Assembly (NCBI GenBank): GCA_037039685.1
Contig: JAWNGF010000003.1
Span: forward strand, 186,001 to 250,000
Direction of reading: 5' to 3'
DNA length: 64,000 bases
From: Ceratobasidium sp. AG-K
Taxonomy: Eukaryota > Basidiomycota > Agaricomycetes > Cantharellales > Ceratobasidiaceae
Shown: in pieces, positions 2,041-64,000 of the stretch
Layout of the letters: every line of letters starts with the position of its first letter
Numbering within the stretch: the stretch's first letter is position 1
The notes under the pieces: model-generated
Seen by the model: the letters and a program-made list of their open reading frames with translations, nothing else
Told to the model about the DNA's origin: nothing
The model's database searches: none
Position numbers and translations under genes: made by a program

Positions 2041-5000
2041 TGCGGAACCCCCGTAGGCTTTTGTATAGAGGTATGAGTGTATGTTACAATCTCATGGGGG
2101 ACAATGAAACAACAACAGCATATCGAGATTTGCCTGAGAGCTGGAGCCTCCGGGGAAGGGTGTTTTGCACCTAATCCATCCCGGTATATCTGCAGTATCC
2201 TGTAGAAGGGAGAACCACTGCAATATTCTGTGACTCGCAAGTCCTCGAGGCTTCTTTTCGTACCTCTAGCCACTTGGATGAGAGCGAGTTTAGCATCCTC
2301 CACCAGGTTGAGGCCGGTTTGAATAATAACAATAAAAAGTCGAGCTACGGCGGCTTCCACTACAGCAATGGGAATGGTACCCGGGCTGGGTTGTGAGCCG
2401 ATGGCTATCTAAAGCAGGGTTACAATTGCAATATATCTAGGTACTTAAGAAAGGTCTGATACTCAAACAGCAATAACCCCTTGGTGAGGTATCCGATCTA
2501 AGCGTACAGTGACTGGTTCATTGTTTCATATCGTAGTTACATGAGGCTACCACACAACAGCGCGAAAACCGGAGAATAGAGTAGTCCGCCCGAGAAAGTC
2601 ATAGACAAGAGATAATAGAAATAGTGCATGTCCATGTCCTCGGGCTTTGTCGCCCGAGAGTCAGCGTCCTTTGATGTAAGAGTCAAATATATGCGCATCA
2701 TCTACTCCTCAAGCAATGGCGTATCGATCACATGAATCACACCGTTGTTGGTTGTCACATCCGAACGGATGACCCGTGACTTGACACACCCGTAAACAAC
2801 ATATAGCTCGTCGCCTTCCCTCTTAAACCTGAGCGTCTTGTTTGAAACAGCCACCGTGGCATCTAGGTCCTTGATCTCAGTGCTATAAAGTACCTGGTTC
2901 GAGAGCACGTGGTTTTCGACACCCTCTCGCTCCACCCTCTCAGCAGGAAACGTAATCGGCGCAAACACCTGTTGCGACCACAAAGAGGTCAGTTTCATTG
3001 GAGAAAATAGACTGAGCAATGGACTGACCGTCATGCTCCCATTGTTTGTCAGGTCGTCCAATAGCCCGGCGGCTAGCGTTGCGCCACTGAAGCCGTGAAA
3101 TCCTTCAGGTGCAACGTCTGGAAGGCCGTCGCAGAGTACGTCCTTGACAGTCGAAGGCGGAGTGATCTTGGTGTCAATTTCCTGTATGTTGATATTCCTG
3201 AAATTCCCGATGGTCTTTGCGGTGGAGTTTCCTGCCGTGCCACGGATGGCACGACCACCATCAGCGGAAATATCAACGACCTATAGGAAGGTCAATACCA
3301 AGTTAGTAAAACCAAGGAAGCAACGAACCTGGACTTGAGGTTTTCCTCCGAGTTTGACAAACTCGGGGTCGTCCCAGAGAGTTGGCACGACCATGCGCAG
3401 TGGCTCGACGTTGCTACGCCTTGCAGGGCTGCTGCCATCGTCGGTCGCCGAAAACGCTACTGGTTGTGCGCTGCCAGCCTGTCGGCGCCTACCATGTAGC
3501 AATGCCTAAATGAATGTTATTAGAACGGACGTACAACACGAAACGCGAAAACGTACCTCGTTGGAAGCAGCATAAATGGTCTTGCGTCGGGGATCTGCCA
3601 ACTTCTTGACGAATTCTTGGCCCTTGTCGGTTGCGCTCCAGCTCTCTAGTTCACCAGCATAGCTGGTAAGATTCTTCTTGCATAGAAAATCTAGCAAGCC
3701 GCGCAAGAAGTCATCTGTGCGGGGCGCAACGGGCGACGCATTCACCGCGACGGATGAGGCCAGCAGGAGCCCAACGAAGAATTTGGCGAACATGACAGTA
3801 GCTAGACGAAGGCGGGCAGGTGCTAAATCGTAGAGCAGACAGAAGATTCGATGCAAGTCGCAGACTGTAAGGAGTAAGTGCGTTCTACCAGTCGGTTTTA
3901 TACTCCAAAGGCAGCACGACGACGTCGACCCCCTGGCCAAGAGTACACGTAGGAATTGCTTCGGGTGCGGGGAGAAGTGAGGTATTAGCGCCAAGAGAGA
4001 TACACGAGGCCGATACGCCTGGGGATGTTGTGTCTAGCCCTGGTGCATGAGCTGTAAGTGAAGAGGATTATCGTAAGAATGTCATACTTGTGTGGGGTAG
4101 CTCCGAGAAACGACATTGTTTTCGCAATGCCACGAGTACGAATTAGGTTAGCAAGGTTAGGCGCTATCTTAGGTTTGGCGGATCACGATGCGTGGGGAAA
4201 TTGTACCGGTCATTGAGCACTAAAAGCCGCGTGCACACTCATCCCTCAAGCCCTCCTTGGTTAACTTCATAAACGGTGCAATTTCAAGTGACAGAAATAG
4301 AGAACCGGTTCTGCTTTTGGTGATAAACAACCCCGTTCCCCGATCATTCACATCCTTCCGTTGTCATGAACGGCCGAACATGAGTATCGGCCCCACTATA
4401 ATAGCCCTGGAATATCTCTTAGTTCAAATCTACTCATCCGATAGATTGACTTGTCGAGCCGAACAGCGCTTGCGACCCAGTTTTGATGGGCGCCTATCTT
4501 AGGTAATCACTTTTGAATCGTGGCGCCTAACGCGAGTTCCACAAATGGCGAGGAGGCTGAGTGTATCCGTCGTGCCTCTTAGGACTATCTGTTGCGTTGG
4601 TTCATACGGTACAAGTATTCACACTGTATTAGATGTCAATCTCCCGTTACGAACCGCCCTCACGGCAAAACCAACCTTTATTTATTTCGCGACTCCAGTC
4701 GAGTGCGTGCTTGACACGAGACCGCCCAATAACTCTGGGACGCTGATAATTACACTGCTGCAAACCAATCACTGAGTCCGGATTGATAAGAACTGCCGAC
4801 GCTCCTGAACGCTTCGGCACTAGAGCCCTAGGCTCGCGATTGCGCTGTTCGGCGGCCCGTGGAATACTTAGCTGGAACGAAGTTTGTGCATTTTGGTCAC
4901 GAGAACGCCGTCCTAGTGGAGTGCTGCGGGGCCTTGCAAGCACTCCAAGTCACGGGATCCTTAAGGGCCTGAGGTTATCTCTTGATGATAGACCCTACTC

Positions 5001-6129: not shown

Positions 6130-8945
6130 TGTGAGAAACACCTAGGCTTTGTGTAGAGGTATAACTGTATGCTATGATCTGGTAAGGGACAATGAAACGG
6201 CGAAAACACCACGAGCTCGAGATTCGCTTGGGACCTGGAGACCCTGGTGAAGGGTACTTCGCACCTAAGGCGTCTGAGTACATCAGGAGTACCCGGGTGA
6301 AGGGAGGGCCACGGCAAAATACTGTGGCTCAGAAACCACCCTCTTTGTACCTCTAGCCACCTGGAGGAAAGCAAGATTAGCTTATTCTATAGGACTAGGG
6401 CCGGGGTTTTAAATAACAGCCAGGCCGCAGTGGGTTCCATCGCCGCAACGGCACTGGTACTTGGGCAGGGTTACGAGCCGATGGCTATGTAATACATGTT
6501 ACAATTGCGCTATGACCCCAAGAAGGTCTAATACTCAAACCGGCAATGGCTTCTTGATCAGGTGCCCAATCTAAGTATACAGAGTCCAATTCATTGTTTC
6601 ATATTGTATTTACAGAAGGACACCACAGTAGCGCGAACATCAGAGGATAAAAGTAGTCCGATCGAGAAAGTCAAAGACAAGAGATAATAGAATTAGTACC
6701 TGTCCACTCCCTTGGGCTTTGTCGCCCGAGAGTCAGCGTCCTTGGGTGCAAGAGTCAAATATATGCGCAACATACATCTACTCAAGCAACGGCGTATTGA
6801 TCACATGAATCACACCGTTGTTGGTTGTCACATCCGAACGGATGACCCGTGACTTGACACACCCGTAAACAACATATAGCTCGTCGCCTTCCCTCTTAAA
6901 CCTGAGAGTATGTCCTTGACAGTCGAAGCCGGAGTGATCTTGGTGTCAATTTCCTATATGTTGATATTCCTGAAATTCCCGATGGTCTTTGCGGTGGAGT
7001 TCCCTGCCGTGCCGCGGGTGGCTCGACGACTGTCAGAGGAGATATAAATGACCTATCTCAGGAAGGTCAATAATAGGTAGATAACTAAACCAACGAGGCA
7101 AATTACCTGGACTTGAGGGCGTCCTCCAAGTTTGACAAACTCGGGGTCGTCCCAGAGAGTTGGCAAGACCAAGCGCTGCGGCTCGATGTTGCTGCGCCTT
7201 GCAGAGCTGCTGCCATAGTCAGTGGCAGAAAACGCCACTGGTTGTGCGCTGCCGGCCTGTTGGGCCCGCTTGCCATGTAGCAATGCCTGGGTAAATATCA
7301 TTAGAATGGTTGTACACCACAAAACGCGAAAGCGTACCTCGTTGGAAGCAGCATAAATGGTCTTTCGTTGTGGGTACGCTAGCTTCTTGACAAATTCTTG
7401 GCCCTTGTCGGTCGCGCTCCAGCTCTCTAGTTCGCCGGCATAATCGGTAAGGTTATTTTTACACATATACTCTAGCAATCCGGACAGGAAGTCATTGGCA
7501 CGGGGTTCGAAAGGCGACGCTTGCACCGCGACGGATGAAGCCAGCAGGAGCCCAACGACGAACTTGGCAAACATGCCAGTAGCTAGACAAAGGGGCAAGG
7601 GCTGAGTCGCAGAGCAAGCGGATGACTCGATGCAAGTCGTAAACCGTGAGGAGGAACTGCGTCCTCCCGGTAGATCTCATACTCCAAAGGCAGCATGACA
7701 ATGTCGGTCTCCAACGCAGAGTACATGCTGGAATTGCTTCGGGCGCGGGGAGAAGTGAGGTGTTAGTGTCAAGGGAGATACACGAGGCAGAACACCTAGG
7801 GATGTCATGCCCGGCCCTGGATGCACGAGCTACAAGTGAATATAATTATCGTAATAATGTCACACTTGTGTGGGGTAGCTCCAAGGAGCGATAAGATTTG
7901 CACAATACCACGAGTACGAGGTGACCTTAGCAAGGCTAGGCGCCATCCAACGGTCGGCGGATCACAATGCATGGGGGAATTATGCCGGTCCTTCAACACC
8001 AAAAGACATGTGCACGCTCATCCTTTGATTCCCTCGTTGTTAACTCGGCAAACGATGCGATTTCAAGTGGCAAAAATAGACGCCCGGCTGTGCTTTTCGT
8101 GATAAGCAACTCCGTTCCCCCGGCCGTTGACATGTTTCCACTATCACACGGAACCAAGCTCGGCCACCCACCATCCGAACCACGTTGTAATATCCCCCCC
8201 ATTGTAGCTAATTCACGCACATTAATCTGATAGATTGTCTTTCGAAGCCGAATAGAGCCCGCCACCCAGTTTTTGTTGGGGCGCTTCATCATCTTTGAAT
8301 TTTGGCGCCTCATACGAGGTCTACGCGCGGTGGGAAAGCTGAGCATATCTGTCGTGCACCTCGGAATCACTTGTTGCCCGCTTCGAATTCCTGGCTCCTG
8401 TATATCTTATGGGTTATGGGCCAACCTCACGCCGGTGCCGGCCGTCATTTGCTTGGCTATTAGAGAGCTTCGGCAGTCGAGTCCGTGCTTGGGCACGAGG
8501 TACTCTACTGTGCCGACAATCGGGCTCATGTATACTTGATGGATGAATCCGGATCGATAAGAACGCCATCGCTCCCGAACACCCAGAATTGTGATTCCGC
8601 TGTTCGGCAGCCTGTGCAATACTCAACTCAGAAGGGTCGATCCGGGAAAGGCTGAAATTTTGGCATTTCAGTTCTGAGAGCACCGCTTCTGTGGAGTAAT
8701 CCACAGGTCTTGCGAGTACTCGTGTCGCAGGGTTCACTTCGAGCAACTCGTAGGACTCCTAGGCCTTCCGGAGCACTTGGAACCTGGAATTGTTTCCCGA
8801 TGATGAGTCCCAATTAGACATTGGTTAGCGTCCAAAGTACCAATTAGGCTCGCAATGCTCGGAGCCTAACGCCAATCAAATGAGGGTCGAGGCTTGGTTT
8901 ATGAACGTAAGGGAGACGTCATGAATCCATATTTCCAATACTTCT
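6130..8945. repeat. Segmental duplication, copy B (carries the fasciclin pseudogene)
   Basis: Direct-orientation partner of 2041-5150. Landmarks shared by both copies include GTACCTCTAGCCAC (2259 and 6348), TTCATTGTTTCATA (2517 and 6590) and CAAATGAGGGTCGAGGCT (5070 and 8877). The shorter length is explained mainly by a deletion of about 300 bp in the gene. Confidence 0.85.
6778..7574 (-). pseudogene. Fasciclin protein pseudogene (paralogue of 2702-3793)
   Basis: Exon 1 (7574-7338, signal peptide MFAKFVVGLLLASS) and exon 2 line up exactly with the intact copy and remain open. Exon 3 carries an in-frame TAG directly after FRNINI, near 6956. It is then joined to the middle of the old exon 4 by a deletion that removes the end of exon 3, intron 3 and the start of exon 4. 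The breakpoint is near 6908, where CCTGAG meets AGTATG, with a GAG/AG microhomology at both edges in copy A. The C-terminal box (GVIHVINTPLLE) is still readable. Both lesions prevent a full FAS1 domain. A truncated secreted product could still be made. Confidence 0.85.
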
Positions 8946-47979: not shown

Positions 47980-50033
47980 TTACATATCAGGGCTTGAAGA
48001 CTCGTTCTCGAGGGGAACGCCAGCGCCCTCCTCATCGCTTAACCTGATTGCTCCGCGACGGTTGCGCACAAGGCCATACGCGCTCTTGGCCATGCCCAGC
48101 ACCGATATTATCACGGCCGCCAGCGCTGCCCAGTGCACAAACTCGCTCGAGCGCTGGCGTACGAAAATCGCAAACAGCGACCATGTGATTACCATATTGG
48201 CCACGAGGTCACCGTCGTCTGAGGACGCATACACCTCGGACGCTCCAACCAAAAACAATCTACAGGGTATTAGCACGAGTTTGGGTGGCAAAAGGTGTAC
48301 GCACAATCCTAGACAGACGGACAATTTGGTGAATATACCGGCCGGGTGATCTTCGGCGGATACACCTAGTGCCTCGAACCCTGCCACGACGACAAGGACG
48401 GTCGTCCATGCGTGCCATAGCGAAATCGGAATATGAATCCAGACTGGGAAGTTGTCAGCGGATATAACCGGGAACCGATCAACTTACGTCGATCATGGAT
48501 GTTCTCTGCGGCGTGGTGCTTCTTCAAAATATAGTAAATCTGGGAAATGAGGGCCCAGTTCAAGGGCACAACGATTAGTGCAGCGACAAAATGTCCCTAT
48601 AGTCAAAATAAGTCTAGTAAAGCCTGGAGAACTATTCAGCTACTTACCGCAAGGCTGACGTAGAGGTAAACATAATTTAACACGATGAGGACCGGGAGCC
48701 GCCACCCAATCCCCTCAGTAATCGTCTTTCTACCGCTTTCTGTGAACTGGTACACCATCGATCCCAGCGGAAGAAAACAGATGAGCACCCAGACGCTAAA
48801 TGCGTACGACGCAGGCGTAAAGTATGTTTGCCTGACTGAGGGGTACGATTTTCCCTACAACGATAGATCAGTCAGGTTCAATGTAGTGGTGTACTAGCTT
48901 ACAACAATAGTGATCAAGATACTCGCCCCACCCAATGCAAATTTCGGGCACAGCACCACGTTTGCAACCTATCCTCATCAGCCACATAGTCGACAACGTC
49001 CATCAACTCACCTGCACTGCTCTCCCCCAATAAGGACCAAGTATAAGCGCACGTAGACTCTTGAACACTCCAAAAAGCGACAAGACCGCAAACACCAGCG
49101 CGGGCCAGCGTACGAAACCGCTCCACCATTGTCGTAGTAAAATGGCAATCAACGAAAACGTAATTGTCATGGTTGCCGCGACGTCGCCCCCATCCGACTG
49201 GAATGCATACGCTTCTGAAGCTGCTTCCAAGAACAACCTGTCGGAGAATTGAGCCTTGAGCTATAGGAGTTGAAGGATTCGTACAGTCCGAGAAAGACAA
49301 ACACCTTGGTCCACACGCCCGCCGGGGTGTAGTCGCTTGCACCAAACGCTTCGAACGCTGCTACGACAATAAGTACTGTCGTCGAGCTATGATATAGCGA
49401 GAACGGGACGCGAATCCACACTAGCCATTCTGTTAGACCTGACTAACCGGGAGCAAACAACTCACATTGATCATGAATACTCCGTCCGACTTGATGTGAT
49501 TTCAACATGTAATAGATGCGGGAAACAACGCCCCAGGTTAGGAGGGCCAAGATAAATGCTATGGCATATTTTTCTGTTAACTAAACGATATTCGTCTAAC
49601 CGTACCATACATTCTAGTGTGTTACTCACCCAAACTATGAGATAAGCCGCATTCAGAGTTGCAAGCAGTGGCCACCACCAGCCAATCCCGTTGATAATCG
49701 ACCTCTTGCCGTTGTCCGTGAACTGATATATACTCAATCCCAACGTGAGCGGACCGATAAGCCACCGGAGGATTAACCAATACGGTGCAGGGGTAAAGTA
49801 GGTTTGTCTACCAGTGCTACGCCATTCGTTGTTCCAGACATAAGGCTGTGTTCTGAGCTTTAGCTGCAGAGAAGGGGGTAACTGTGGGTGAACTTGCATT
49901 GATAGAGGACATAACGATTGAAGTGAGAAGCCATATCAGTATATTTATAATCTACTTTCGTAAGCCACCATAATGCAATCTCAAATGAATGCTGACATAC
50001 CTTTAACCAGAAACCATCAGTCCAGTCGCTCAT
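47980..50033 (-). CDS. Multi-pass membrane protein A, two tandem repeats
   Basis: The first repeat begins [11 protein letters not shown] (exon 50033-50001; an upstream Met at 50108 is possible). It continues with helix [14 protein letters not shown] (49951-49898), the marker TYFTPAPYW, then [33 protein letters not shown]-type, [38 protein letters not shown] and SLIAILLRQ segments. Instead of ending, it is spliced into a second repeat that starts near 48995 with [19 protein letters not shown] and shows the same markers ([32 protein letters not shown]). It ends with an acidic tail ([13 protein letters not shown]) at 47980. Each repeat has about seven helices, so the protein has about fourteen. 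Family and function not recognised. One short intron (49897-49864) uses a GC donor. Confidence 0.65.
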
Positions 50034-50108
50034 TGTGTCAGTAATACAACTCGAGGTCGTGGTCGTTGCTCTTGTGAACCAGCTGAGGTCGCGCAGAGGG
50101 TTTGTCAT

Positions 50109-51276
50109 CTTCGAGGCGTGGAATTATCAGGGTCCGGCGACACAGCATTGAGCGGCGGCTTGGCTTGCACCTATTGACCGGGCTCGCAGGCTGATTTCGG
50201 TTGTATTGTAATTATTGGTAGTTGAGATTGCTCCGATGCGAGCGAACGTCCACATACAGGCGACGTCCAACCAGAATGGGAGTTGGAAATATCATCGGTG
50301 TCCAGTAATGTCTTTCTGGGGGCTCGATCGACTCGAGCCTACTCAGACTTTAGCATACAACACAAGTATGCAAACTAGAATCCAGAGCGACAGAGTTCGA
50401 CCTCCATATTGTGGGATAGGTTTATAGGCATTCTTGTGTCAGATTTATACGTACCCAAGAGCTATATGCTCTGGACTGGTTTGGTTCAATTTCTCACCTC
50501 AATCTCCTGGGAGTATAAAAGCGTATTTCCATGTATTTTGTATTAATTATTATTAGAGTCTGCTGTGGGGGGAACGTGGTACTTGTCATCCATCCCTCAT
50601 CCCGTGAACCCGAACCTTCGACGTCCCCCCGACTCTAGTGAGGTACGAGAACACCTCGCAGCAGGATCAAGACGCCGTTAACCATATGACCATTCAGCCC
50701 AGTGAGTCTAGATGAAGAGCTGGCCGCTACATAGGAGGAACTGGCGAGGGGATCGCAGACAGGCCTGCTATGGGGTGGCCTGAAACCGCAGTTCGCTCAG
50801 GTAAATTTCAAGTTTACAGTGTCATAAACTCTTGAAAATATCGGGGACCGTGACCTTAACGTTCGAATGAAATTCGAATATGAGGCTGGCCAAGTGCCAA
50901 GAGGTATGTTCACGTCAATATTCTGTTGCAACATCACTGCGGCTGGGAGTTTTTTAGGACCCTGGATTGATTGAGACCTCTCCGTCTAAATGTGTACATA
51001 CATGGTAATTGCAAGTTCTCCATCGTCTCAAACCTTCACAATAACCCGAGGTTCAAGCCATTCTGTATCGAGTTCAAGGCTGGTTAGTGTCCCCAAGTCG
51101 GATGGGTTTGTATGGAACTGATATATGTAATACGTCTCCCAAATTCAGGAATCAGGCTAACAGGATTACTGCCTACGATTTTTCCGATCCACCTCGGGGA
51201 GGCTGGGAATCAAACCTGTCCGGGATTGAAAATATATGAACGAGCTAACGTAGACTACATTACATTCCCTTACGAC
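50109..51276. other. Gene-free stretch between membrane-protein genes A and B
   Basis: No exon of the family and no other coding structure was found. Confidence 0.5.
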
Positions 51277-53355
51277 TCAAGGCGCACTCACAAGTGGTAC
51301 GCTCTCACTCTCTTCATCGGGTAGCCTAATCACTCCACGACGAGCGGGCACAACGTCATACACACTCTTGATTACACCCAGGCCCGACACGACTGCAGCC
51401 GCAAGTGACGCCCAGTACACAAACTTGCTTGAGCGCTGGTGTACGAAAATAGCAAAAAGGGACCACGTAATTGCTACGTTGGCCGCAATATCGCCCTTAT
51501 CTGGAAACGCATACACTTCTGATGCTGCATCCAAAAACAGCCTTTGAATTGTTAGTCTGGTTTGTATGAATAACTGCGATACTCACAGTCCGAGAAAGAC
51601 AGACGCCTTTGTAAATCCGTTCTCTGGTTGGTGGTGAGACTGTGCGTCTGCACCAAATGCCTCGAACGATCTAACGACAAGGAGGACAGTTGACCAGCCG
51701 TGAAAAAACGAGAACGGGACATGAACGCATACTAGTTGCCTAGTCAGACAGGAGGGAACCCGGAGCCTATCAACTCACATTGATCACGGATGTCCTCTGC
51801 GACGGGGTGTTTCTTCAAAATGTAGTAAATATAGGAAATGACGCCCCAAGCTGAGAGTGCAAGGAAAAACCTGGCGATATGATGACCCTGTGGGTACAGT
51901 ACCATTAGTTAAGCCTCGGAGAGCTATCACGGTACTCGCATAGTAAAGTAAGAGGGGGACAAAGTTCAATACAATAAGAAGTGGGAACCACCACCCAATC
52001 CTATCGACAACCGTCTTTTGACCATTGTCTGCAAACTGGTACGCGACTGGCCCAAAAAGGAGCAGAAGGATCAGCGGCCAGGCAATAAACACGTATGGTG
52101 CAGGGGTAAGGTAGGTTTCCTTTCCTACTTCGTACGGATGGCGTTCGCTGTAGGGATATTGCTACAACAATACATTAAATCAGCTTGGAACAGGGTTGTG
52201 GTGGGAAAGGCGTACGATGCCGAGGAGCACAAAATGTAATAAAGCCAGGGCAACCCATGCCACCGCATTTGTAATCTACTTTCATCAGTTGTACCACTCG
52301 GCAACATGCGTCAACCCACCTGTAACACCTTTGTCCTATTAGTACCAAGTGCAAATCCCCAAAGGTTCTTGAACAAGCCAAGCAACGACATGGTTGCAAA
52401 TACCAGTGTTGACCAGTACATAAAGTTGCCCGACTTGTGCTGTTGTACAAAAATGGCGAATAACGACCATGTAACCGCCAGGTTTGCTGCGACGTCGCCC
52501 CCATCCGGTTGGAAGGCATATGCTTCTGACGCCACTTCCAAGAGAAACCTGTAGAAGCATATATAGTCCTATTCCATGCGAATAATGGTGCGTGATCTTA
52601 CAATCCAAGGAAGATGAACAACTTGGTGAACACACCCGCTGTATCGATCTGGGTGTTTACACCAAATGCCTCGAATGCTTCAACGACGAGAAGCACTGTT
52701 GTGGAGCCATGGTACAGTGAGAATGGGATGTAGATCCACACTGGGCATTTTTGTTAGACACAGCTAAGGGGGGGAGGATTCAAATTCACATTGATCGTAA
52801 ATGCTCCGCTTGACGACGTAACGCATCTTCAATAGGTAGTAGACTCGGGAGACAACACCCCAGGTAGAGAGTGTCAAGATAAAAGCCATGAAATAGAGTT
52901 CTCTGGTCTATAATAACATCAGTATGGCATACAGAGATATGTAGCACTCACCCAAACTTGGAGATAGACAATGTTTAAAGCGCCAAGTAGCGGGCACCAC
53001 CAACCAATCCCATCAATAATTGTCCGCTTTCCGTTGTCTTTGAATTGGTATATCATTGTTCCACAGGAGCAAAGAACGATGAGCCACCTGAGGACCGACC
53101 AATATGGTGCAGGGGTAAAGTAGGTTTCTACACCACTAAACTTGAAGGGCCCTTCACCATCCTTAGGCTATGGCTCAAAACGTTAGCTGCGGACGATGAG
53201 ACAAGGATAGAAGAATTGCCTTCATTTTGGACGTAAGAACCCAATTGAGGTACCCGATTACTACATTCACGATCTACTTGCGTTGGTCACTGCAACTAAA
53301 TCTCAGATGAATGTCGATCTACCTTTAACCAGATGCCGTCCCTCCAGTCACTCAT
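51277..53355 (-). CDS. Multi-pass membrane protein B, two tandem repeats
   Basis: Paralogue of gene A with the same double layout. Repeat 1 begins [11 protein letters not shown] (53355) and carries [10 protein letters not shown] (about 53120), [16 protein letters not shown], and [21 protein letters not shown] (about 52490). It is followed across an intron by [17 protein letters not shown] (52270-52220), which opens repeat 2: [52 protein letters not shown] and the acidic tail [13 protein letters not shown]. The frame upstream of the first Met meets a TAG near 53407, so the Met before SDW is the start, as in genes A and C. About fourteen helices. Some intron borders (for example after the first helix) have two possible donors. 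Confidence 0.6.
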
Positions 53356-53692
53356 TCCGGCACTGGCACAACTCAAAGTTGCAGCTGTTGTTAAACGATG
53401 CTGAAGCTTTTCGAAACTCTATCGAGAATAAGTTGTGGTAGTGGGCAGGGTGATCTTTGAGACAGCCATCAGGGTCTGGCAACACAGCCTCGAACAGCGG
53501 TAGCTATGAACTTAATCTTTTGACTCGCAGATCCGGTCCGGCAACGCCGCAATCGTTAGTGGTCAGGGTTACCCCTATGTAAGAAAACGTCGCCTTTTAC
53601 CACATTTATCTACGGAAGATAGCTCCGCTGCTACAAGCCAGTCCATTATAATTGACTATGAAATACTACAACTCCAGTAAAATAACCAACAT

Positions 53693-54780
53693 CTAAGCGC
53701 CGGCCATAAGCGGGACAGTCTCCTCATCCTGAGCCCTTGTCCCCCGGATACTAAAATTATATCCATGCACATACAGACACTTGATCACGCTAAGCAGCGA
53801 CATGACTGCGAATGTAAGTGCTGACCAATGTATGAACCCACTTGAGCGTTGATTCTCGAAAACGGCAAACAGGGACCATGTAACCGCAAGCGCCGCAGTG
53901 AGATCGCCCTCGTTTGACTGGAACGCATACATCTCTGATACTGCTTCTAGAAATAATCTACCCTGAAATTAGTCTTGCGTCACGCGGGTAATGGTAGGTG
54001 CACGTACAGTCCCAGAAATACAAACATCTTGGTAAAACCACCGACCGGTGTTTGCACGTTTATGCCAAAGGCTTCAAATAGTGTCACAACGAGGAGGACT
54101 ATTGTCCAGGCATGATACAGTGAAAACAGGTGATGGACCCAAACTGGCCGTGGTATTGTCAAACTGATCACAAATGGGACCGAACCACTCACCCCGGTCA
54201 TTAAGACTTCTTCTGACACTAGGTTTGTTCAGAATGTAATAAATATGGGAGGTAATGCTTGACACCCAGAGAGCAAACACAGATGCTATGATATAGTGTC
54301 CTTCTATCTTTAAGAGTGTCAGTCTTGTCCTGCAAGGTGATGTAGTGTTTACCCAAGCCGTGTTATAAAATATACCTAAAAACGCAAGCAGCGGGAATCG
54401 CCAACCAATCGTATCGATGACTATTCTCTTGCCCTCATCCGTAAATTGATATATGTTGTACCCAAGCAGGAGCGCATGGACAAGCACTGAGATACCAGAA
54501 GCATGCGGCGCGGGGGTAAAGTAGGTCGGTCTACCCAGCTGGTGCCAGCGGACGGCACCAGTCTCGGGCTACATCTTTGGACATAAGTTGCGAATGAAAA
54601 GAAATAGCCGAAGACTCACATCAAATACGGTCAAAGTACTCGAGCCGAGGAGCGAAGAGAACATGACCACGTTCACAATCTAATCTCATGAGCCACCGCA
54701 GCAGAATCACATGAAGGTCGTCAACCTACTCTGAGCCAAAAACCGTCTGTCCAGTCACTGTACGTCCAGTTACTCATCAT
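53693..54780 (-). CDS. Multi-pass membrane protein C, single repeat
   Basis: It starts [17 protein letters not shown] and runs through [92 protein letters not shown] and [17 protein letters not shown] helices. It ends with an acidic tail [11 protein letters not shown]. Exons join in phase over seven introns. It has the N-terminus of a first repeat and the C-terminal tail of a second repeat, so it is a one-module version (about seven helices) of genes A and B. It could be the ancestral form, or a fusion gene shortened by deletion. Confidence 0.65.
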
Positions 54781-56046
54781 CCCAGTGGAAGTAAACAAGT
54801 TTGTGGTCGTCACCAAATCAGAAGGACCAAAAGGCGGCCGGTTGCCGGGCTATGTCTTTGAAGCTTCTCGGTTCACTCTAGATCTCCATCAAGGCCGAGT
54901 GGATTGCCCTCGTGTCATTGGAGATATCAGGGTCTCACGACCAAACAACTCACGACCTGCCACTGGCCGCTCTCGAGCTGGTTTAGCCACTTGTTGAGTC
55001 GTAAGATAACGCACCACCTTTTGGGTGTCCATTTAGGTTGGACTCAACCTAATTGAGAATAGGGTCTTAAACTTTTGTTAGAATAGGGTGAGTTGTTGGA
55101 AATATATTCATCGATGAGGATGTTACATCGTCCCTATGCCATCGGTGGGTACCTAGGACTCTTCTATGATGGCGCGTACTCCTTGTCATCCAACACGCTC
55201 GTCCTACCAAGAAGAAACGGGTGAATGAACCACTAGATGATAAAACCATACCATGTAGAGTTATACCAGGTTACAGCAAAGAAAGCAAGCGGACCATTTT
55301 AATGTCAGTTTGTGCCTAATAGAACTAGTTGGGGCAACACAACGAGAGCGGATGGCCTACATTTACGATAGCCAAAAATTTCGAGAGGAGCGGGGGTAGG
55401 CTCCCACGCTCACAAGCTACTCTTGCCAGCTACCGCAGCCAAAAGCTCCTATAGAATATTAACCAATCTTGAGACAAAACATACCTGCCCAGTCACCTCT
55501 GTCCAGTCACCCATCCCGCCGATCATAGAGCGTGAGATCGTGCTCATCGTGAGGCGGCAAGAGCCGAGGATAGCTTGCTTGAAACAAGGGCTTCTGGGCG
55601 TCACTTGTGAATACGAACACTTACCGGGGCTCGGCGGCCGGAGACCAGCTGCTCTCGGTCCACTCCCTCATCGAGTCAATAGCATAATGCAGGGGCGTGG
55701 TCGCTGCCGGACAGCAAGGGCCAAGGGTAGCCACTTCTCTGGAACCAAGGCCTCTGGCGGGACGATGGCCCTCCAGAAAGATTGCATTTACCCACATGCT
55801 GAGAGCACAACCATGCACTTGGTCGCTCTATATCAATTACCGTGGGAGAGTCGTGGCTCGTAGGAAGCGTGGCTATGCTTCTAAAACGGATCCGCAGTGA
55901 TCTGTGCTCCAATCCTGCAACGTGCGTTGTGATTCGTCGACTCATCGACCCATCAATATCCCATATTCGTCCTCGTGTACAGCGATAACAAACACAGGAA
56001 CGACTTGACCCTGACAACCACCGGACCATCCGTGTTGTTAAACACG
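54781..56046. other. Gene-free stretch with a family relic
   Basis: ORFs such as 55423-55863 (+) have no family features. An exon-1-like relic of the membrane-protein family is at 55485-55514 (-). A stretch of possible + strand exon sequence ends at 56046, where the intron array begins. Confidence 0.4.
55485..55514 (-). pseudogene. Relic first exon of the tandem membrane-protein family
   Basis: It reads MGDWTEVTGQ and is followed by a GTATG donor, matching the length, start and splice phase of the [11 protein letters not shown] exons of genes A, B and C. No downstream family exons were found before gene C, so this looks like the remains of a fourth gene. Confidence 0.4.
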
Positions 56047-57599
56047 GTGAGCGACTTCGTTGCTGGCCTGTGAATATGTTCCTAGTGGACCAATAACACC
56101 CTAGTTTGATCGAGACGATTGTAATTCCGCGAGTCAGAATGGTAAGCCAGATATAGTTTATTCGAGTTAGGTTAATGCTCGTTTATGCCAATGGTTTATC
56201 CGGGTACAGGCAGTGAGTCGAGTGTGGTCCGTTTGATCCAAGTGTCGACTTACTTCCCATTTCGCGGTTCCAATGATATAGTTGGTAGGTAAAAAAAACG
56301 CTACCAATGAATCCAAGCTGACAGCCGACGCTTCTGCTATTCAGGTGGTAAGTGAGATAGGAAAGCCGCCACTGGCACTAGGCTAATAATTACTCGGGCT
56401 ATATCATGGGATTAGATGGTTAGTAGAGTGCTTTCGCTCGACCTAAACTGACCAGCTTGTGACCCCGACGGTTTAGATGGTACGTAGGCTACGGTATGAC
56501 CCGGTCTGAGTTGACCCGCCCTGCTTACAACGTCACGAGGATAGATGGTGAGTGGCGAACACTAGATCGAACTAGCCTGACTTCTTTTTATCGCGATTTT
56601 TCGGGAACAGAGGGTGAGTTGAACGGAGAGCCTGTGGAACGTCGGTATTTGACCTCGGCCCCATGTTCATTGATGTATACAGGCGGTAGGTGGTGTCTAT
56701 ACTGGTATCATTCGAGCTAAGCTGAGTGGACTCGCAATGACATCCCCAACGTAGATGGCAAGTCGAACAACGTGGCGCCCAAGCTATACTAATATGTTCC
56801 CGGTATTATCTTGGGACGATAGACGGTGGGTCAGGGAAACGCCCCTCGAGCTAGGCTGATCTCCTTCCAACTCAAATGCCCTCTACACAGACGGTGAGGC
56901 CACTAAAGTGTTACGTGATTCTGGCTAATCTTCTTTCTTTTTCTAACGGCACGTCGTGGACATAGCTGGTAAGTAAGAGAGGTGATATATCGACACTCGG
57001 ACCAGAATGACCCACTTTATCACTGTATTTTTATCGCAGATCGTAAGTCAGGTATAATACTGCTAGACGCAAGCTGACCACCCTATTTATAATTTTCGAG
57101 CGTAGGATGTGAGTATGAAGCCGTACTGCTGAGCCGATGCTGATCGACCATGATAAAGCGGATATGGTCCGGACGAGTGAGTCGGATATGTCACGATGTG
57201 ATTATTCTAACTTCAACTTCTGATAATGACCCCATTTCAGGCGGTGAGTCGGGTGGAGCGTTGATCGAGCTAGTCTAATTCGTATTTCACTCGACGCGTG
57301 AGTTTAGCCGGTTAAATTCTAATTTTAATTATATTGATCGGTTCAAGCTGACTTACCTTGGCTCTGGCGATTCAGATACGGATTGTAAGTTGGACTGTGA
57401 CGTTCGTAATACAGGCTAAGATAGGGGTTTTTGCTTGCGGCCAACGTAGGGGAGGCGAGTAGGGCTCGGCCACGCACGAATCAAGCTGACCCAGTATTAT
57501 CATGACGTTGCAAATATAGGATGTGAGTTGGGTGCTGTTTTCCTTGGGTTGAAGTTAGGCTTAACACGGTACCCTACCACCATGGTCGTGGCATTCTAG
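56047..57599 (+). repeat. Tandem array of ~21 intron-like units separated by trinucleotide exons
   Basis: From 56142 the sequence can be read as consecutive introns with almost nothing between them. Intron intervals: 56142-56209, 56213-56281, 56285-56344, 56348-56415, 56419-56476, 56480-56544, 56548-56610, 56614-56682, 56686-56754, 56758-56822, 56826-56890, 56894-56965, 56969-57039, 57043-57105, 57109-57158, 57177-57240, 57244-57375 (two fused units), 57385-57449, 57459-57519, 57523-57599. Donors are GTRAGT-like (one GCAAGT at 56758); acceptors are TAG or CAG. A block like TCGAGCTAGGCTGAC with the branch site lies 20-40 nt before most acceptors. Most gaps are 3 nt, the others 18, 9, 9 and 0 nt. 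A further unit may occupy 56047-56104. No known gene type matches. Confidence 0.75.
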
Positions 57600-57636
57600 G
57601 TGAGTCGACGATAGAAAAAATCAGTTTCGTGTGGTC

Positions 57637-60600
57637 TTGAAATCCAGAGTGGCTGCTAATGCGTATCGCCACAAAATACGACAAATAATGTTCTTGACTT
57701 TTCATTAGATATTGGGTAGAAGTAATGCGGATTGTGTATTGGACTTGTAATCGGAATAAGTGAGAACTTGTAATGGCTGATAAGTCTGGACTTGTAATCA
57801 GCTATTTGTTTCTGGGCATAATCTGGATTAGTTCTGACTTGTAATGAGCATTAATCTGGACTTGTAATCTGGATTAGTGCTGTTGCTTTGCAAAATTGCC
57901 AAAAAATGTTTTGAGAATTCATTTATCCTGAGTTGTAATCGGCATTAGTCTTGACTTGTGATTTGCGAGTTGCTGATGTTTAATGGGTTCCGAGTTTTGG
58001 GGGCGGCTGCCACCCGCAAGCGGGTCCCGTCAGCCTTATTATACACGTTAAAAACCACTAGTGGGTGGGTTTAGTTGGTGCGCTGGGTGCATAACCTAAC
58101 AACCTAACTTAACAACATAACCTAACTGCGTGTTTTGCTGATTCAGAGCTGTGTCGGAAGTTGATTAACACAAACTTTGTAATCAGCGTTAGTCCCAAAT
58201 TGTAATGGCCATTAGTATTTGGGAGTAATGGCTGAGTATTTATCCCTTGTAATTGTCATTTATACTTGGTTGGAATCTCAATTAGTCCCGACTTGTAATG
58301 CGGGATTAGTGTCAACTTGTAATCAGAAGTATTAGTCCTGACTTGGAATTGCTCATTAGTGTCAGGGGTGTTGCGTTGCAAAGTTGGCAAAAATGTTTGG
58401 AAGTCGGGATTAGTCTTGTGTTGTATTCTGGAGTAGACCTCATTAGTCCTGACTTGTAATTGGGATAAGTCGGAACTTGCAATATCCATTGGTCTTGACT
58501 TGTAATCAGCCATTAGCACTGGATTGTAATCTGGATTAGTCCTGACTTGTAGTCTGGATTGGTGCTGTTGCTTTGCAAAATTGCCAAAAATGTTTTGACT
58601 TTTGCATTAGTCTTGCATTAGTCTGAGTTGTAATCACCATTAGTGATTGGTTCCAATGGCCCTCACTTCTATTTTCTAATGATCTATTGCTCTGGAATTG
58701 TAATCTGGATTAGTGCTGACTTGTAATGCCTGATTAGTCCAAAGTTGTAATAAGCAACTACTTCTGACTTGTAATCAGCATTATTGATGGACTTGTAATC
58801 CAGAGTGGTGCTATTGCGTTGCAAAATTGACAAAAATGTCTTGACTTTTCATTAGTATTGGGTAGAAGTAATGCGGATTGGTATTGGACTTGTAATCGGA
58901 ATAAGTGAGAACTTGTAATGGCTGATTAGTCTGGACTTGTAATCAGCTATTTGTTTCTGGGCATAATCTGGATTAGTTCTGACTTGTAATGAGCATTAAT
59001 CTGGACTTGTAATCTGGATTAGTGCTGTTGCTTTGCAAAATTGCCAAAAATGTTTTGAGAATTCATTTATCCTGAGTTGTAATCGGCATTAGTCTTGACT
59101 TGTGATTTGCGAGTTGCTGATGTTTAATGGGTTCCGAGTTTTGGGGGCGGCTGCCACCCGCAAGCGGGTCCCGTCAGCCTTATTATACACGTTAACACCC
59201 TCTAGTGGGTGGGTTTAGTTGGTGCGCTGGGTGCATAACCTAACAACCTAACTTAACAACATAACCTAACTGCGTGTTTTGCTGATTCAGAGCTGTGTCG
59301 GAAGTTGATTAACACAAACTTTGTAATCAGCGTTAGTCCCAAATTGTAATGGCCATTAGTATTTGGGAGTAATGGCTGAGTATTTATCCCTTGTAATTGT
59401 CATTTATACTTGGTTGGAATCTCAATTAGTCCCGACTTGTAATGCGGGATTAGTGTCAACTTGTAATCAGAAGTATTAGTCCTGACTTGGAATTGCTCAT
59501 TAGTGTCAGGGGTGTTGCGTTGCAAAGTTGGCAAAAATGTTTGGAAGTCGGGATTAGTCTTGTGTTGTATTCTGGAGTAGACCTCATTAGTCCTGACTTG
59601 TAATTGGGATAAGTCGGAACTTGCAAATATCCATTGGTCTTGACTTGTAATCAGCCATTAGCACTGGATTGTAATCTGGATTAGTCCTGACTTGTAGTCT
59701 GGATTGGTGCTGTTGCTTTGCAAAATTGCCAAAAATGTTTTGACTTTTGCATTAGTCTTGCATTAGTCTGAGTTGTAATCACCATTAGTGATTGGTTCCA
59801 ATGGCCCTCACTTCTATTTTCTAATGATCTATTGCTCTGGAATTGTAATCTGGATTAGTGCTGACTTGTAATGCCTGATTAGTCCAAAGTTGTAATAAGC
59901 AACTACTTCTGACTTGTAATCAGCATTATTGATGGACTTGTAATCCAGAGTGGTGCTATTGCGTTGCAAAATTGACAAAAATGTCTTGACTTTTCATTAG
60001 TATTGGGTAGAAGTAATGCGGATTGGTATTGGACTTGTAATCGGAATAAGTGAGAACTTGTAATGGCTGATTAGTCTGGACTTGTAATCAGCTATTTGTT
60101 TCTGGGCATAATCTGGATTAGTTCTGACTTGTAATGAGCATTAATCTGGACTTGTAATCTGGATTAGTGCTGTTGCTTTGCAAAATTGCCAAAAATGTTT
60201 TGAGAATTCATTTATCCTGAGTTGTAATCGGCATTAGTCTTGACTTGTGATTTGCGAGTTGCTGATGTTTAATGGGTTCCGAGTTTTGGGGGCGGCTGCC
60301 ACCCGCAAGCGGGTCCCGTCAGCCTTATTATACACGTTAACACCCTCTAGTGGGTGGGTTTAGTTGGTGCGCTGGGTGCATAACCTAACAACCTAACTTA
60401 ACAACATAACCTAACTGCGTGTTTTGCTGATTCAGAGCTGTGTCGGAAGTTGATTAACACAAACTTTGTAATCAGCGTTAGTCCCAAATTGTAATGGCCA
60501 TTAGTATTTGGGAGTAATGGCTGAGTATTTATCCCTTGTAATTGTCATTTATACTTGGTTGGAATCTCAATTAGTCCCGACTTGTAATGCGGGATTAGTG

Positions 60601-63600
60601 TCAACTTGTAATCAGAAGTATTAGTCCTGACTTGGAATTGCTCATTAGTGTCAGGGGTGTTGCGTTGCAAAGTTGGCAAAAATGTTTGGAAGTCGGGATT
60701 AGTCTTGTGTTGTATTCTGGAGTAGACCTCATTAGTCCTGACTTGTAATTGGGATAAGTCGGAACTTGCAAATATCCATTGGTCTTGACTTGTAATCAGC
60801 CATTAGCACTGGATTGTAATCTGGATTAGTCCTGACTTGTAGTCTGGATTGGTGCTGTTGCTTTGCAAAATTGCCAAAAATGTTTTGACTTTTGCATTAG
60901 TCTTGCATTAGTCTGAGTTGTAATCACCATTAGTGATTGGTTCCAATGGCCCTCACTTCTATTTTCTAATGATCTATTGCTCTGGAATTGTAATCTGGAT
61001 TAGTGCTGACTTGTAATGCCTGATTAGTCCAAAGTTGTAATAAGCAACTACTTCTGACTTGTAATCAGCATTATTGATGGACTTGTAATCCAGAGTGGTG
61101 CTATTGCGTTGCAAAATTGACAAAAATGTCTTGACTTTTCATTAGTATTGGGTAGAAGTAATGCGGATTGGTATTGGACTTGTAATCGGAATAAGTGAGA
61201 ACTTGTAATGGCTGATTAGTCTGGACTTGTAATCAGCTATTTGTTTCTGGGCATAATCTGGATTAGTTCTGACTTGTAATGAGCATTAATCTGGACTTGT
61301 AATCTGGATTAGTGCTGTTGCTTTGCAAAATTGCCAAAAATGTTTTGAGAATTCATTTATCCTGAGTTGTAATCGGCATTAGTCTTGACTTGTGATTTGC
61401 GAGTTGCTGATGTTTAATGGGTTCCGAGTTTTGGGGGCGGCTGCCACCCGCAAGCGGGTCCCGTCAGCCTTATTATACACGTTAACACCCTCTAGTGGGT
61501 GGGTTTAGTTGGTGCGCTGGGTGCATAACCTAACAACCTAACTTAACAACATAACCTAACTGCGTGTTTTGCTGATTCAGAGCTGTGTCGGAAGTTGATT
61601 AACACAAACTTTGTAATCAGCGTTAGTCCCAAATTGTAATGGCCATTAGTATTTGGGAGTAATGGCTGAGTATTTATCCCTTGTAATTGTCATTTATACT
61701 TGGTTGGAATCTCAATTAGTCCCGACTTGTAATGCGGGATTAGTGTCAACTTGTAATCAGAAGTATTAGTCCTGACTTGGAATTGCTCATTAGTGTCAGG
61801 GGTGTTGCGTTGCAAAGTTGGCAAAAATGTTTGGAAGTCGGGATTAGTCTTGTGTTGTATTCTGGAGTAGACCTCATTAGTCCTGACTTGTAATTGGGAT
61901 AAGTCGGAACTTGCAAATATCCATTGGTCTTGACTTGTAATCAGCCATTAGCACTGGATTGTAATCTGGATTAGTCCTGACTTGTAGTCTGGATTGGTGC
62001 TGTTGCTTTGCAAAATTGCCAAAAATGTTTTGACTTTTGCATTAGTCTTGCATTAGTCTGAGTTGTAATCACCATTAGTGATTGGTTCCAATGGCCCTCA
62101 CTTCTATTTTCTAATGATCTATTGCTCTGGAATTGTAATCTGGATTAGTGCTGACTTGTAATGCCTGATTAGTCCAAAGTTGTAATAAGCAACTACTTCT
62201 GACTTGTAATCAGCATTATTGATGGACTTGTAATCCAGAGTGGTGCTATTGCGTTGCAAAATTGACAAAAATGTCTTGACTTTTCATTAGTATTGGGTAG
62301 AAGTAATGCGGATTGGTATTGGACTTGTAATCGGAATAAGTGAGAACTTGTAATGGCTGATTAGTCTGGACTTGTAATCAGCTATTTGTTTCTGGGCATA
62401 ATCTGGATTAGTTCTGACTTGTAATGAGCATTAATCTGGACTTGTAATCTGGATTAGTGCTGTTGCTTTGCAAAATTGCCAAAAATGTTTTGAGAATTCA
62501 TTTATCCTGAGTTGTAATCGGCATTAGTCTTGACTTGTGATTTGCGAGTTGCTGATGTTTAATGGGTTCCGAGTTTTGGGGGCGGCTGCCACCCGCAAGC
62601 GGGTCCCGTCAGCCTTATTATACACGTTAACACCCTCTAGTGGGTGGGTTTAGTTGGTGCGCTGGGTGCATAACCTAACAACCTAACTTAACAACATAAC
62701 CTAACTGCGTGTTTTGCTGATTCAGAGCTGTGTCGGAAGTTGATTAACACAAACTTTGTAATCAGCGTTAGTCCCAAATTGTAATGGCCATTAGTATTTG
62801 GGAGTAATGGCTGAGTATTTATCCCTTGTAATTGTCATTTATACTTGGTTGGAATCTCAATTAGTCCCGACTTGTAATGCGGGATTAGTGTCAACTTGTA
62901 ATCAGAAGTATTAGTCCTGACTTGGAATTGCTCATTAGTGTCAGGGGTGTTGCGTTGCAAAGTTGGCAAAAATGTTTGGAAGTCGGGATTAGTCTTGTGT
63001 TGTATTCTGGAGTAGACCTCATTAGTCCTGACTTGTAATTGGGATAAGTCGGAACTTGCAAATATCCATTGGTCTTGACTTGTAATCAGCCATTAGCACT
63101 GGATTGTAATCTGGATTAGTCCTGACTTGTAGTCTGGATTGGTGCTGTTGCTTTGCAAAATTGCCAAAAATGTTTTGACTTTTGCATTAGTCTTGCATTA
63201 GTCTGAGTTGTAATCACCATTAGTGATTGGTTCCAATGGCCCTCACTTCTATTTTCTAATGATCTATTGCTCTGGAATTGTAATCTGGATTAGTGCTGAC
63301 TTGTAATGCCTGATTAGTCCAAAGTTGTAATAAGCAACTACTTCTGACTTGTAATCAGCATTATTGATGGACTTGTAATCCAGAGTGGTGCTATTGCGTT
63401 GCAAAATTGACAAAAATGTCTTGACTTTTCATTAGTATTGGGTAGAAGTAATGCGGATTGGTATTGGACTTGTAATCGGAATAAGTGAGAACTTGTAATG
63501 GCTGATTAGTCTGGACTTGTAATCAGCTATTTGTTTCTGGGCATAATCTGGATTAGTTCTGACTTGTAATGAGCATTAATCTGGACTTGTAATCTGGATT

Positions 63601-64000
63601 AGTGCTGTTGCTTTGCAAAATTGCCAAAAATGTTTTGAGAATTCATTTATCCTGAGTTGTAATCGGCATTAGTCTTGACTTGTGATTTGCGAGTTGCTGA
63701 TGTTTAATGGGTTCCGAGTTTTGGGGGCGGCTGCCACCCGCAAGCGGGTCCCGTCAGCCTTATTATACACGTTAACACCCTCTAGTGGGTGGGTTTAGTT
63801 GGTGCGCTGGGTGCATAACCTAACAACCTAACTTAACAACATAACCTAACTGCGTGTTTTGCTGATTCAGAGCTGTGTCGGAAGTTGATTAACACAAACT
63901 TTGTAATCAGCGTTAGTCCCAAATTGTAATGGCCATTAGTATTTGGGAGTAATGGCTGAGTATTTATCCCTTGTAATTGTCATTTATACTTGGTTGGAAT
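57637..64000. repeat. Satellite with 1,145-bp higher-order period
   Basis: The marker GGCGGCTGCCACCCGCAAG recurs at 58002, 59146, 60291, 61436, 62581 and 63726, giving steps of 1,144 and then 1,145 bp four times. Copies are nearly identical except the first, whose left edge (57637-57720) is diverged. Each long unit is built from degenerate ~22-bp subunits of the form GACTTGTAATCNGNATTAGT. The array runs out of the window, so its full size is unknown. The ORFs inside are by-products of repetition. Confidence 0.95.
58005..58035. repeat. Hairpin module inside each satell unit
   Basis: ACCCGC AA GCGGGT (58012-58025) is a perfect 6-bp stem, enclosed by GGCTG (58005-58009) and CAGCC (58031-58035). 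From the second copy on, CACCC TCTAG TGGGTG follows as another short stem. The module breaks the 22-bp pattern and recurs once per 1,145-bp unit. Confidence 0.7.

Follow-up and report, generated by a model that had tools for sequence, protein, structure and literature searches.

Among the systems described so far, as they appear in parts of the cited papers, the leucine-rich repeat (LRR) genes of Tetrahymena contain arrays of LRR exons of exactly 90 bp, in phase 2, for which unequal crossing over and exon shuffling have been invoked (PMC6564038). As for fungi, the Cryptococcus gene CNN00420 gained introns via the expansion of a repeat of ~107 nt that holds a whole intron (PMC2395259), and the stwintrons of the Hypoxylaceae are complex introns that occur in families of sequence-similar copies (PMC9024468, PMC12403724). 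The Schistosoma micro-exon genes (MEGs) encode secreted products and combine long introns with 10 to 20 small exons per gene, most of them 15 bp long within a range given as 6–81 bp (3–81 bp in the abstract) (PMC10526429); the bicycle genes of aphids are a divergent family known by its gene structure and not by its sequence, and encode putative gall effectors (PMC9168663). Finally, tiny exons of 1 nt and 3 nt have been reported to be spliced in Arabidopsis APC11 (PMC4674806) and Drosophila homothorax (PMC7392893).

The locus discussed here lies in the window, the whole 64,000-nt stretch of Ceratobasidium sp. AG-K DNA that was analysed, and most likely represents an extreme tandem exon-intron array with one codon per exon. 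The comparisons that follow extend to the same parts of those papers. Like the Tetrahymena arrays, it is made of tandem exon-intron units of one exon size and one phase, here 3 nt and phase 0; the difference is that each exon is one codon and not a 90-bp LRR exon in phase 2, and that the intron is the long conserved part. CNN00420 is likewise a fungal gene with intron gain by an intron-containing repeat, but there the gained introns number two and the exon parts are longer, whereas here there are up to 49 introns, with one codon each, in many genes. The 90-bp arrays and the Cryptococcus repeat are precedents for the principle, not for the form. The Schistosoma MEGs also form a gene family with many successive, symmetric and tiny exons that are hard to annotate, although their exons are larger, their introns long and their products secreted, in contrast to the 3-nt exons, short introns and kinase found here. 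The bicycle genes, which reportedly have many small exons that are not single codons, are comparable in that they are recognised via gene structure, with gall effectors there and kinases here. APC11 and homothorax have similarly tiny exons, but one per gene and not dozens in a row. The stwintrons share with this locus the grouping of complex fungal introns in sequence-similar families, but in a stwintron the splice signal of an external intron is interrupted by an internal one, whereas at this locus every intron is a separate unit with its own donor and acceptor, and a codon separates neighbours. To our knowledge, 49 successive 3-nt exons are without proven precedent, and neither a run of single-codon exons nor such a layout in Rhizoctonia or Ceratobasidium was found to be described in the open-licence text of PubMed Central; in the part of the R. 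solani AG8 genome paper that was covered, the lone mention of "microexon" is an aligner setting (PMC4014442).

Regarding its layout, 21 intron-like units follow an ATG on the + strand of the window (56142–57614), with boundaries taken from an intact copy and positions rechecked in the window. The whole array (56047–57632, +), delimited by the splice-site detector, direct reading and intact copies, probably covers the 5′ region of a kinase gene that is made up of single-codon exons and, in this copy, truncated at its 3′ end. A possible 5′ UTR intron, GTGAGC...CAG (56047–56137, the choice of the detector), precedes a tiny exon, AATG (56138–56141), with the proposed start codon at 56139–56141. 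Introns 1–14 (56142–57105) form, in the detector output, an unbroken run in which the thirteen internal exons are all exactly 3 nt; these start at 56210, 56282, 56345, 56416, 56477, 56545, 56611, 56683, 56755, 56823, 56891, 56966 and 57040, and their codons are, in order, GCA TTG GTG ATG ATG ATG AGG GCG ATG ACG ACG CTG ATC. Downstream of this chain, the exons of the window copy measure 3, 18, 3, 3, 9, 5 and 3 nt, and the features, drawn from the intact copy and checked in the window, are the single-codon exon GAT (57106–57108), intron 15 with a weaker acceptor, AAG (57109–57158), an in-frame exon of 18 nt (57159–57176), introns 16 and 17 (57177–57307) with the single-codon exon GCG between them (57241–57243), the single-codon exon CCG (57308–57310), intron 18 (57311–57375), an in-frame exon of 9 nt (57376–57384) and intron 19 (57385–57449). 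The next exon (57450–57454) has 5 nt in the window copy and 3 nt in both other copies, and the window copy is out of frame onward; then come intron 20, which is GC-AG (57455–57519), a second single-codon exon GAT (57520–57522), intron 21 (57523–57614, also by direct reading) and the start of the exon leading into the kinase (57615–57631), with homology to the intact copies stopping at ~57631.

The original prediction of about 21 consecutive introns with 3-nt exons was right in the total and holds strictly for the chain of 14, but three internal exons have 18, 9 and 5 nt; moreover, its array ended at 57599, while the last acceptor is better read at 57614. Within intron 21, an AG (57598–57599) abuts GTGAGT 15 nt before the intron end, and this is the one candidate in the window for the zero-length-exon type of site used in recursive splicing (AG then GT, 57598–57601), all other steps having at least 3 nt from acceptor to donor. 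The kinship with stwintrons that had been suggested does not apply, because the introns are adjacent, each has its own donor, and none is nested in the splice site of another. On sequence grounds, the signals are those of U2-type spliceosomal introns, namely a GT or GC donor, a branch-like A and an AG acceptor, suitably spaced; the intact copies have one GC donor. The window units have in common a block around the branch site (repeat family D4), which by eye resembles the same part of the 65-nt unit of the young arrays described below, and little else beyond the splice signals. A scan of the 64-kb window with Rfam gave nothing at gathering thresholds.

The array of introns joined by 3-nt exons is confirmed, at the level of predicted splice sites, as a real observation far above chance. 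The detector weights for donor, branch and acceptor came from general knowledge and were not trained on the array. In 100 dinucleotide shuffles of the array, the longest chain with 3-nt exons never exceeded 2, against 14 observed, and the window outside 56000–57650 had no chain of 3 or more on either strand. Control loci of non-kinase genes were drawn from two families only, 35 loci in total: the longest chain was 1–2 in 20 of 20 P450 loci (68.9 kb) and in 15 of 15 NACHT loci (53.2 kb). When the exon length was left free (0–36 nt), 13 of 14 internal exons of the window array were exactly 3 nt, compared to none of 29 in positions 1–55000 of the window and 7 of 108 in the 35 control loci (both strands); across seven array loci, picked for holding arrays, the count was 64 of 76 against the same 7 of 108. 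A pattern search, of which the first places were listed, counted 159 matches, versus 34 for the reversed control.

Copies of the array occur on C3, the contig of the window, at 242040, 484890 (C3:485k) and 593495 (C3:594k), and in the latter two the array is followed by the ordinary exons of a protein kinase gene. With the predicted introns removed, C3:485k would read MALVMMMRAMTTLIDRIWSGRAPIRIEDKISFVLIDTDGRIVMTTVRDEPYEP..., followed by the joined kinase exons, stop-free; this kinase has 624 database relatives, of which the matches listed (the best 120) are kinases, come from Rhizoctonia or Ceratobasidium where their source is named, and reach a best identity of 63%. Between C3:485k and C3:594k, 32 of 1140 intron-body sites differ, and none of 231 donor, acceptor and exon sites (Fisher P 0.004). 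The window copy ceases to match the other copies at ~57,631, just 5′ of satellite repeats of 1,145 bp, and has no kinase domain; it is a truncated duplicate that has probably lost its function. An attempt to read the window gene as a D-rich product, entered via an upstream exon, runs into a stop, as judged by eye.

As for the surroundings, the satellite occupies ~57700–64000 of the window, starting at the point where the kinase is cut; it is tandem, with a period of 1,145 bp and nested repeats of ~23 bp (GACTTGTAATC...), and its unit was also found at C9:1735.9–1742.5k, C13:1424.7k and, in part, C7:2675k (best 3 of 6 candidates scored), the window itself not being among the matches listed. Upstream of the array, on the minus strand (~48000–54570), there are apparently tandem, diverged genes for a protein with multiple membrane spans and many short introns. 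Blocks of C3 are repeated ~243 kb apart, as for the P450 matches at 145336/387999 and 142690/385347 and the array at 242040/484890, with the duplicated block including at least the window from 53046 onward; many matches elsewhere in the genome are also identical pairs, which may reflect two nuclear haplotypes or large duplications in the assembly. At the C3:485k locus (L004), both tandem kinase genes carry, before an early kinase exon, an AG followed by a 15-nt stretch, GTRAGT..GAC..TAG (4446–4460 and ~7807–7821, by eye), that looks like a miniature intron, and a 9-nt exon (ACAATACTT / ACAATACTC) apparently sits within the kinase domain of both C1:210k and C3:485k, again by eye.

The layout recurs in the kinase family. 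Searching the genome with the kinase part gave at least 181 matches (best 150 of 338 candidates scored), and the 30 loci obtained from them correspond to 24 distinct genes. Arrays, defined as chains of at least 4 introns with 3-nt exons, were present in 14 of the 24, each on the kinase strand, or in 10 of 19 after merging five sets of near-identical pairs, compared with 0 of 35 control loci; in the other 10 of the 24 genes, the ~1.5 kb of upstream sequence examined was free of arrays. In most of the other arrays, judged by eye, the units have little in common past the splice signals, as in the window, so that the window array and most others look old. Three further pairs are too close to add much: C6:289k and C6:660k differ at 0 of 36 exon, 2 of 126 donor and acceptor, and 17 of 764 intron-body sites; C3:2622k and C3:5603k at 0 of 33 exon and 3 of 774 intron-body sites; and C12:665k and C12:936k show no difference. 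When C3:2622k is compared with C7:1075k, the exons differ at 5 of 18 sites and the introns at 43 of 370 (Fisher P 0.06), an exon divergence not below that of the introns, which fits diversification as well as neglect.

The clearest view of the triplets as codons comes from C1:210k, whose gene model has an ATG, exons of 23 and 7 nt, 47 single-codon exons and seven kinase exons, with 49 introns in all; the lengths of the first two exons were set by eye to preserve the frame, and the paralogue C1:190k shares both. Its introns span 58–76 nt, apart from the first two, and those at other loci 48–125 nt, a range fixed by the limits of the detector. Once spliced as predicted, one frame (MIPYRKRGKYLNRDTLERENELEAAREAARERELRERELSQYLVELRRSHEQAEAELPPSHSPDVPSTSTRVSNTVVTSHLSLPEIISLL...) runs from the start codon through the array to the kinase; the protein matches PF00069 (E 1.6e-31), and its array part, LERENELEAAREAARERELRERELSQYLVELRRSHEQAEAEL, is charged and helix-prone. 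In this model of 295 residues the only Met 5′ of the VAIK lysine is the start, and an in-frame TAG stands immediately 5′ of the first exon after the array; consequently, a working kinase would need a start upstream of the array. By eye, a divergent gene on the opposite strand upstream of the C1 arrays (L036, L037) seemingly starts at the CATG of the kinase gene, in which case the two seem to have a very short common promoter.

The codon behaviour holds beyond this gene. Stops were 1 in 234 among single-codon exons in the kinase frame, and 15 and 17 in 204 in the other two, as counted in chains of at least 3 introns at twelve loci picked for holding arrays, where some short chains are possibly due to chance and the detector disagrees with the hand-checked C1:210k model over a few codons; with these stops, the two non-kinase frames were discarded as coding. 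The sole in-frame stop is a TAG codon-exon in the young array of C1:190k (C1:190300–194000, minus strand), where the kinase exons downstream look open, and this gene may be damaged or may have the exon skipped. Helix-forming residues make up 0.598 of the array codons, against 0.466 expected from composition, a value equalled in 0 of 5000 permutations; in old arrays alone they make up 0.549 against 0.434 (P 0.0016). An unspliced read-through of the repeats was also considered and set aside, because neither unit length, 68 or 112 nt, is divisible by three and the repeats could not hold one frame. The array peptide, searched against the protein database, had no match at E up to 10 among 757 candidates, and it was absent by eye from 20 sequences among the best 120 of the 624 kinase relatives.

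Young arrays, where the units are still alike, give an insight into how the layout may arise. At C1:190k and C1:210k the unit is an intron of ~65 nt plus one codon, repeated 18 and 46 times, respectively; at C3:2618k and C3:5603k an unrelated 109-nt intron is tandemly repeated, also with one codon each, and the presence of both introns in arrays implies that amplification occurred at least twice. That the window units descend from duplicated introns, as the original prediction had it, is now probable in light of these young arrays of the same layout in the same genome. The 65-nt intron has at least 63 matches, confined to two loci among the matches scored, both within arrays, while the 109-nt intron has at least 128 and forms tandem runs on C5 (five places), C3 and C7 (two places each). 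At six of these nine places (C3:2618k, C3:5605k, C7:1070k, C7:2379k, C5:2119k and C5:2276k) a kinase match lies within ~2 kb downstream; at C5:2126k, C5:2155k and C5:2292k there was no downstream kinase among the matches listed. The pairwise difference is 0.175 for introns versus 0.535 for exons at C1:210k (40 of 46 units, those with an intron of exactly 65 nt) and 0.123 versus 0.623 at C1:190k (18 units), and near-identical introns (0–2 differences) share their codon in 8 of 10 pairs at the former and 1 of 6 at the latter. Turnover is also visible between near-identical genes: beyond the young array, C3:2618k and C3:5603k differ by 3 substitutions in 2,899 aligned bases and by 2 gap columns, and yet they hold 17 (with borders, KYGEYYRVRRGEYRYRYRT) and 24 (KYGELYRVRLYREYVYVEEYRYRYRT) cassettes, in different order. 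In the 109-nt arrays, intron variants within ~15 nt of the codon are strongly linked to it (0.61–0.93 bits), whereas those farther away reach at most 0.40 bits, with 9 of 22 still at P <0.05 (uncorrected); the 65-nt array has no such decay of linkage with distance. The codon-linked variants near the exons of the 109-nt arrays may be the trace of exchange within the repeated introns.

Taking these data together, it is highly probable that the array makes up the 5′ portion of a kinase gene whose coding sequence is split into single-codon exons that would be spliced to a helix-prone N-terminal peptide, and that it grows by duplication of a unit of one intron and one codon. A different origin would see the introns as copies of a mobile, introner-like element, inserted at the codon boundaries of an older, continuous coding sequence for a helical stretch, with the codons never copied along. 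The much greater likeness of introns than of codons in both C1 arrays agrees with this idea, as do the near-identical introns of C1:190k, which rarely have a codon in common; since such pairs mostly share the codon at C1:210k, as unit duplication predicts, but not at C1:190k, an introner-like origin is retained as a rival, albeit an unlikely one. It requires insertion at every codon boundary, in phase 0, dozens in succession, and the same behaviour from two unrelated introns, and the places where these introns were found speak against it, the 65-nt one lying within arrays at two loci and the 109-nt one in tandem runs; near-identical introns scattered over many genes were not seen among the best-scored candidates, where rarer copies may be missed. 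Alternatively, the arrays may be coding but serve mainly to generate splicing variants, so that frame-keeping skipping would give many peptide versions per gene and this variety would be selected. All 3-nt exons are symmetric, so skipping leaves the frame intact, and the stop codon of C1:190k lies in an exon that could be skipped; nevertheless, near-identical gene copies already differ in their DNA, a change that can supply variety alone, and this function is rather improbable as the main one.

The remaining explanations deny the array a role in the protein. One of them holds that the array is non-coding, that it acts as a splicing-factor decoy, a regulatory 5′ leader or an intron-only transcript, and that translation of the kinase begins further downstream. 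This is very unlikely: the window copy alone, with its 5-nt microexon and no kinase after it, could suggest it, as could a Met located 3′ of the array in C3:485k (IVMTTVR), but the depletion of stops is confined to one frame, the helix bias extends to old arrays, and C1:210k has no Met from the array to the catalytic lysine. Of the functions first imagined for this DNA, a transcript made almost entirely of introns finds no support, since the triplets act as kinase codons in one frame from the start codon to the kinase domain, and a splicing-factor decoy fits poorly with stops being nearly absent in the kinase frame only and with arrays that lead into the kinase in full copies; a ratchet for stepwise splicing is likewise unsupported in its non-coding form, given the same codon behaviour, while stepwise removal of the introns is itself likely. 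The last option, chance or decay, in which an intron-derived minisatellite or pseudogene would look splice-like while having no gene function, is hardly credible; it suits the window copy, a truncated duplicate adjoining a satellite, but it clashes with the recurrence of arrays, which 14 of 24 kinase genes carry on their own strand, and with the splice sites and exons left unchanged between C3:485k and C3:594k as the intron bodies came to differ.

In the preferred reading, that of a coding array grown by unit duplication, splicing would take out ~20 short introns in the gene of the window, and 49 in the paralogue C1:210k, joining the codons in one frame into an N-terminal peptide, expected to be helix-prone, ahead of the kinase domain. 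Acceptor and donor can hardly be bound together across a 3-nt exon, so neighbouring introns would be removed in turn, and the upstream exon would gain one codon per splice; because joining any donor to any later acceptor stays in frame, splicing errors would cost residues and not the frame. The array would grow by tandem duplication of one intron with one codon, and recombination in the repeated introns would then add, drop or reorder single codons, with the intron as the substrate and the codon as the payload; since the long part of the unit is spliced out, such recombination would alter codons without a frameshift. With age, arrays would pass from a young state, with alike introns and differing codons, to an old one, as in the window, where mainly the splice signals and the exon length are left.

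If this is true, dozens of consecutive one-codon exons would set a new extreme for the spliceosome, introns would be gained by tandem duplication together with a codon, with young and old arrays in one genome, and proteins would have a route to lengthen or change by single residues at no risk of frameshift; the finding touches on the minimum size of an exon, on intron gain and on how proteins gain residues, and gene annotations likely overlook such exons. A bolder view, held tentatively and with less than even confidence, is that these fungi rewrite the kinase protein at the DNA level by single residues, cassettes being gained, lost and shuffled in frame far faster than the rest of the gene changes, perhaps with skipping of codon-exons in addition. 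In fungal recognition genes, hypervariable repeats are thought to serve recognition; the rewriting system, if it is under selection, could help these fungi to choose partners or to tell self from non-self.
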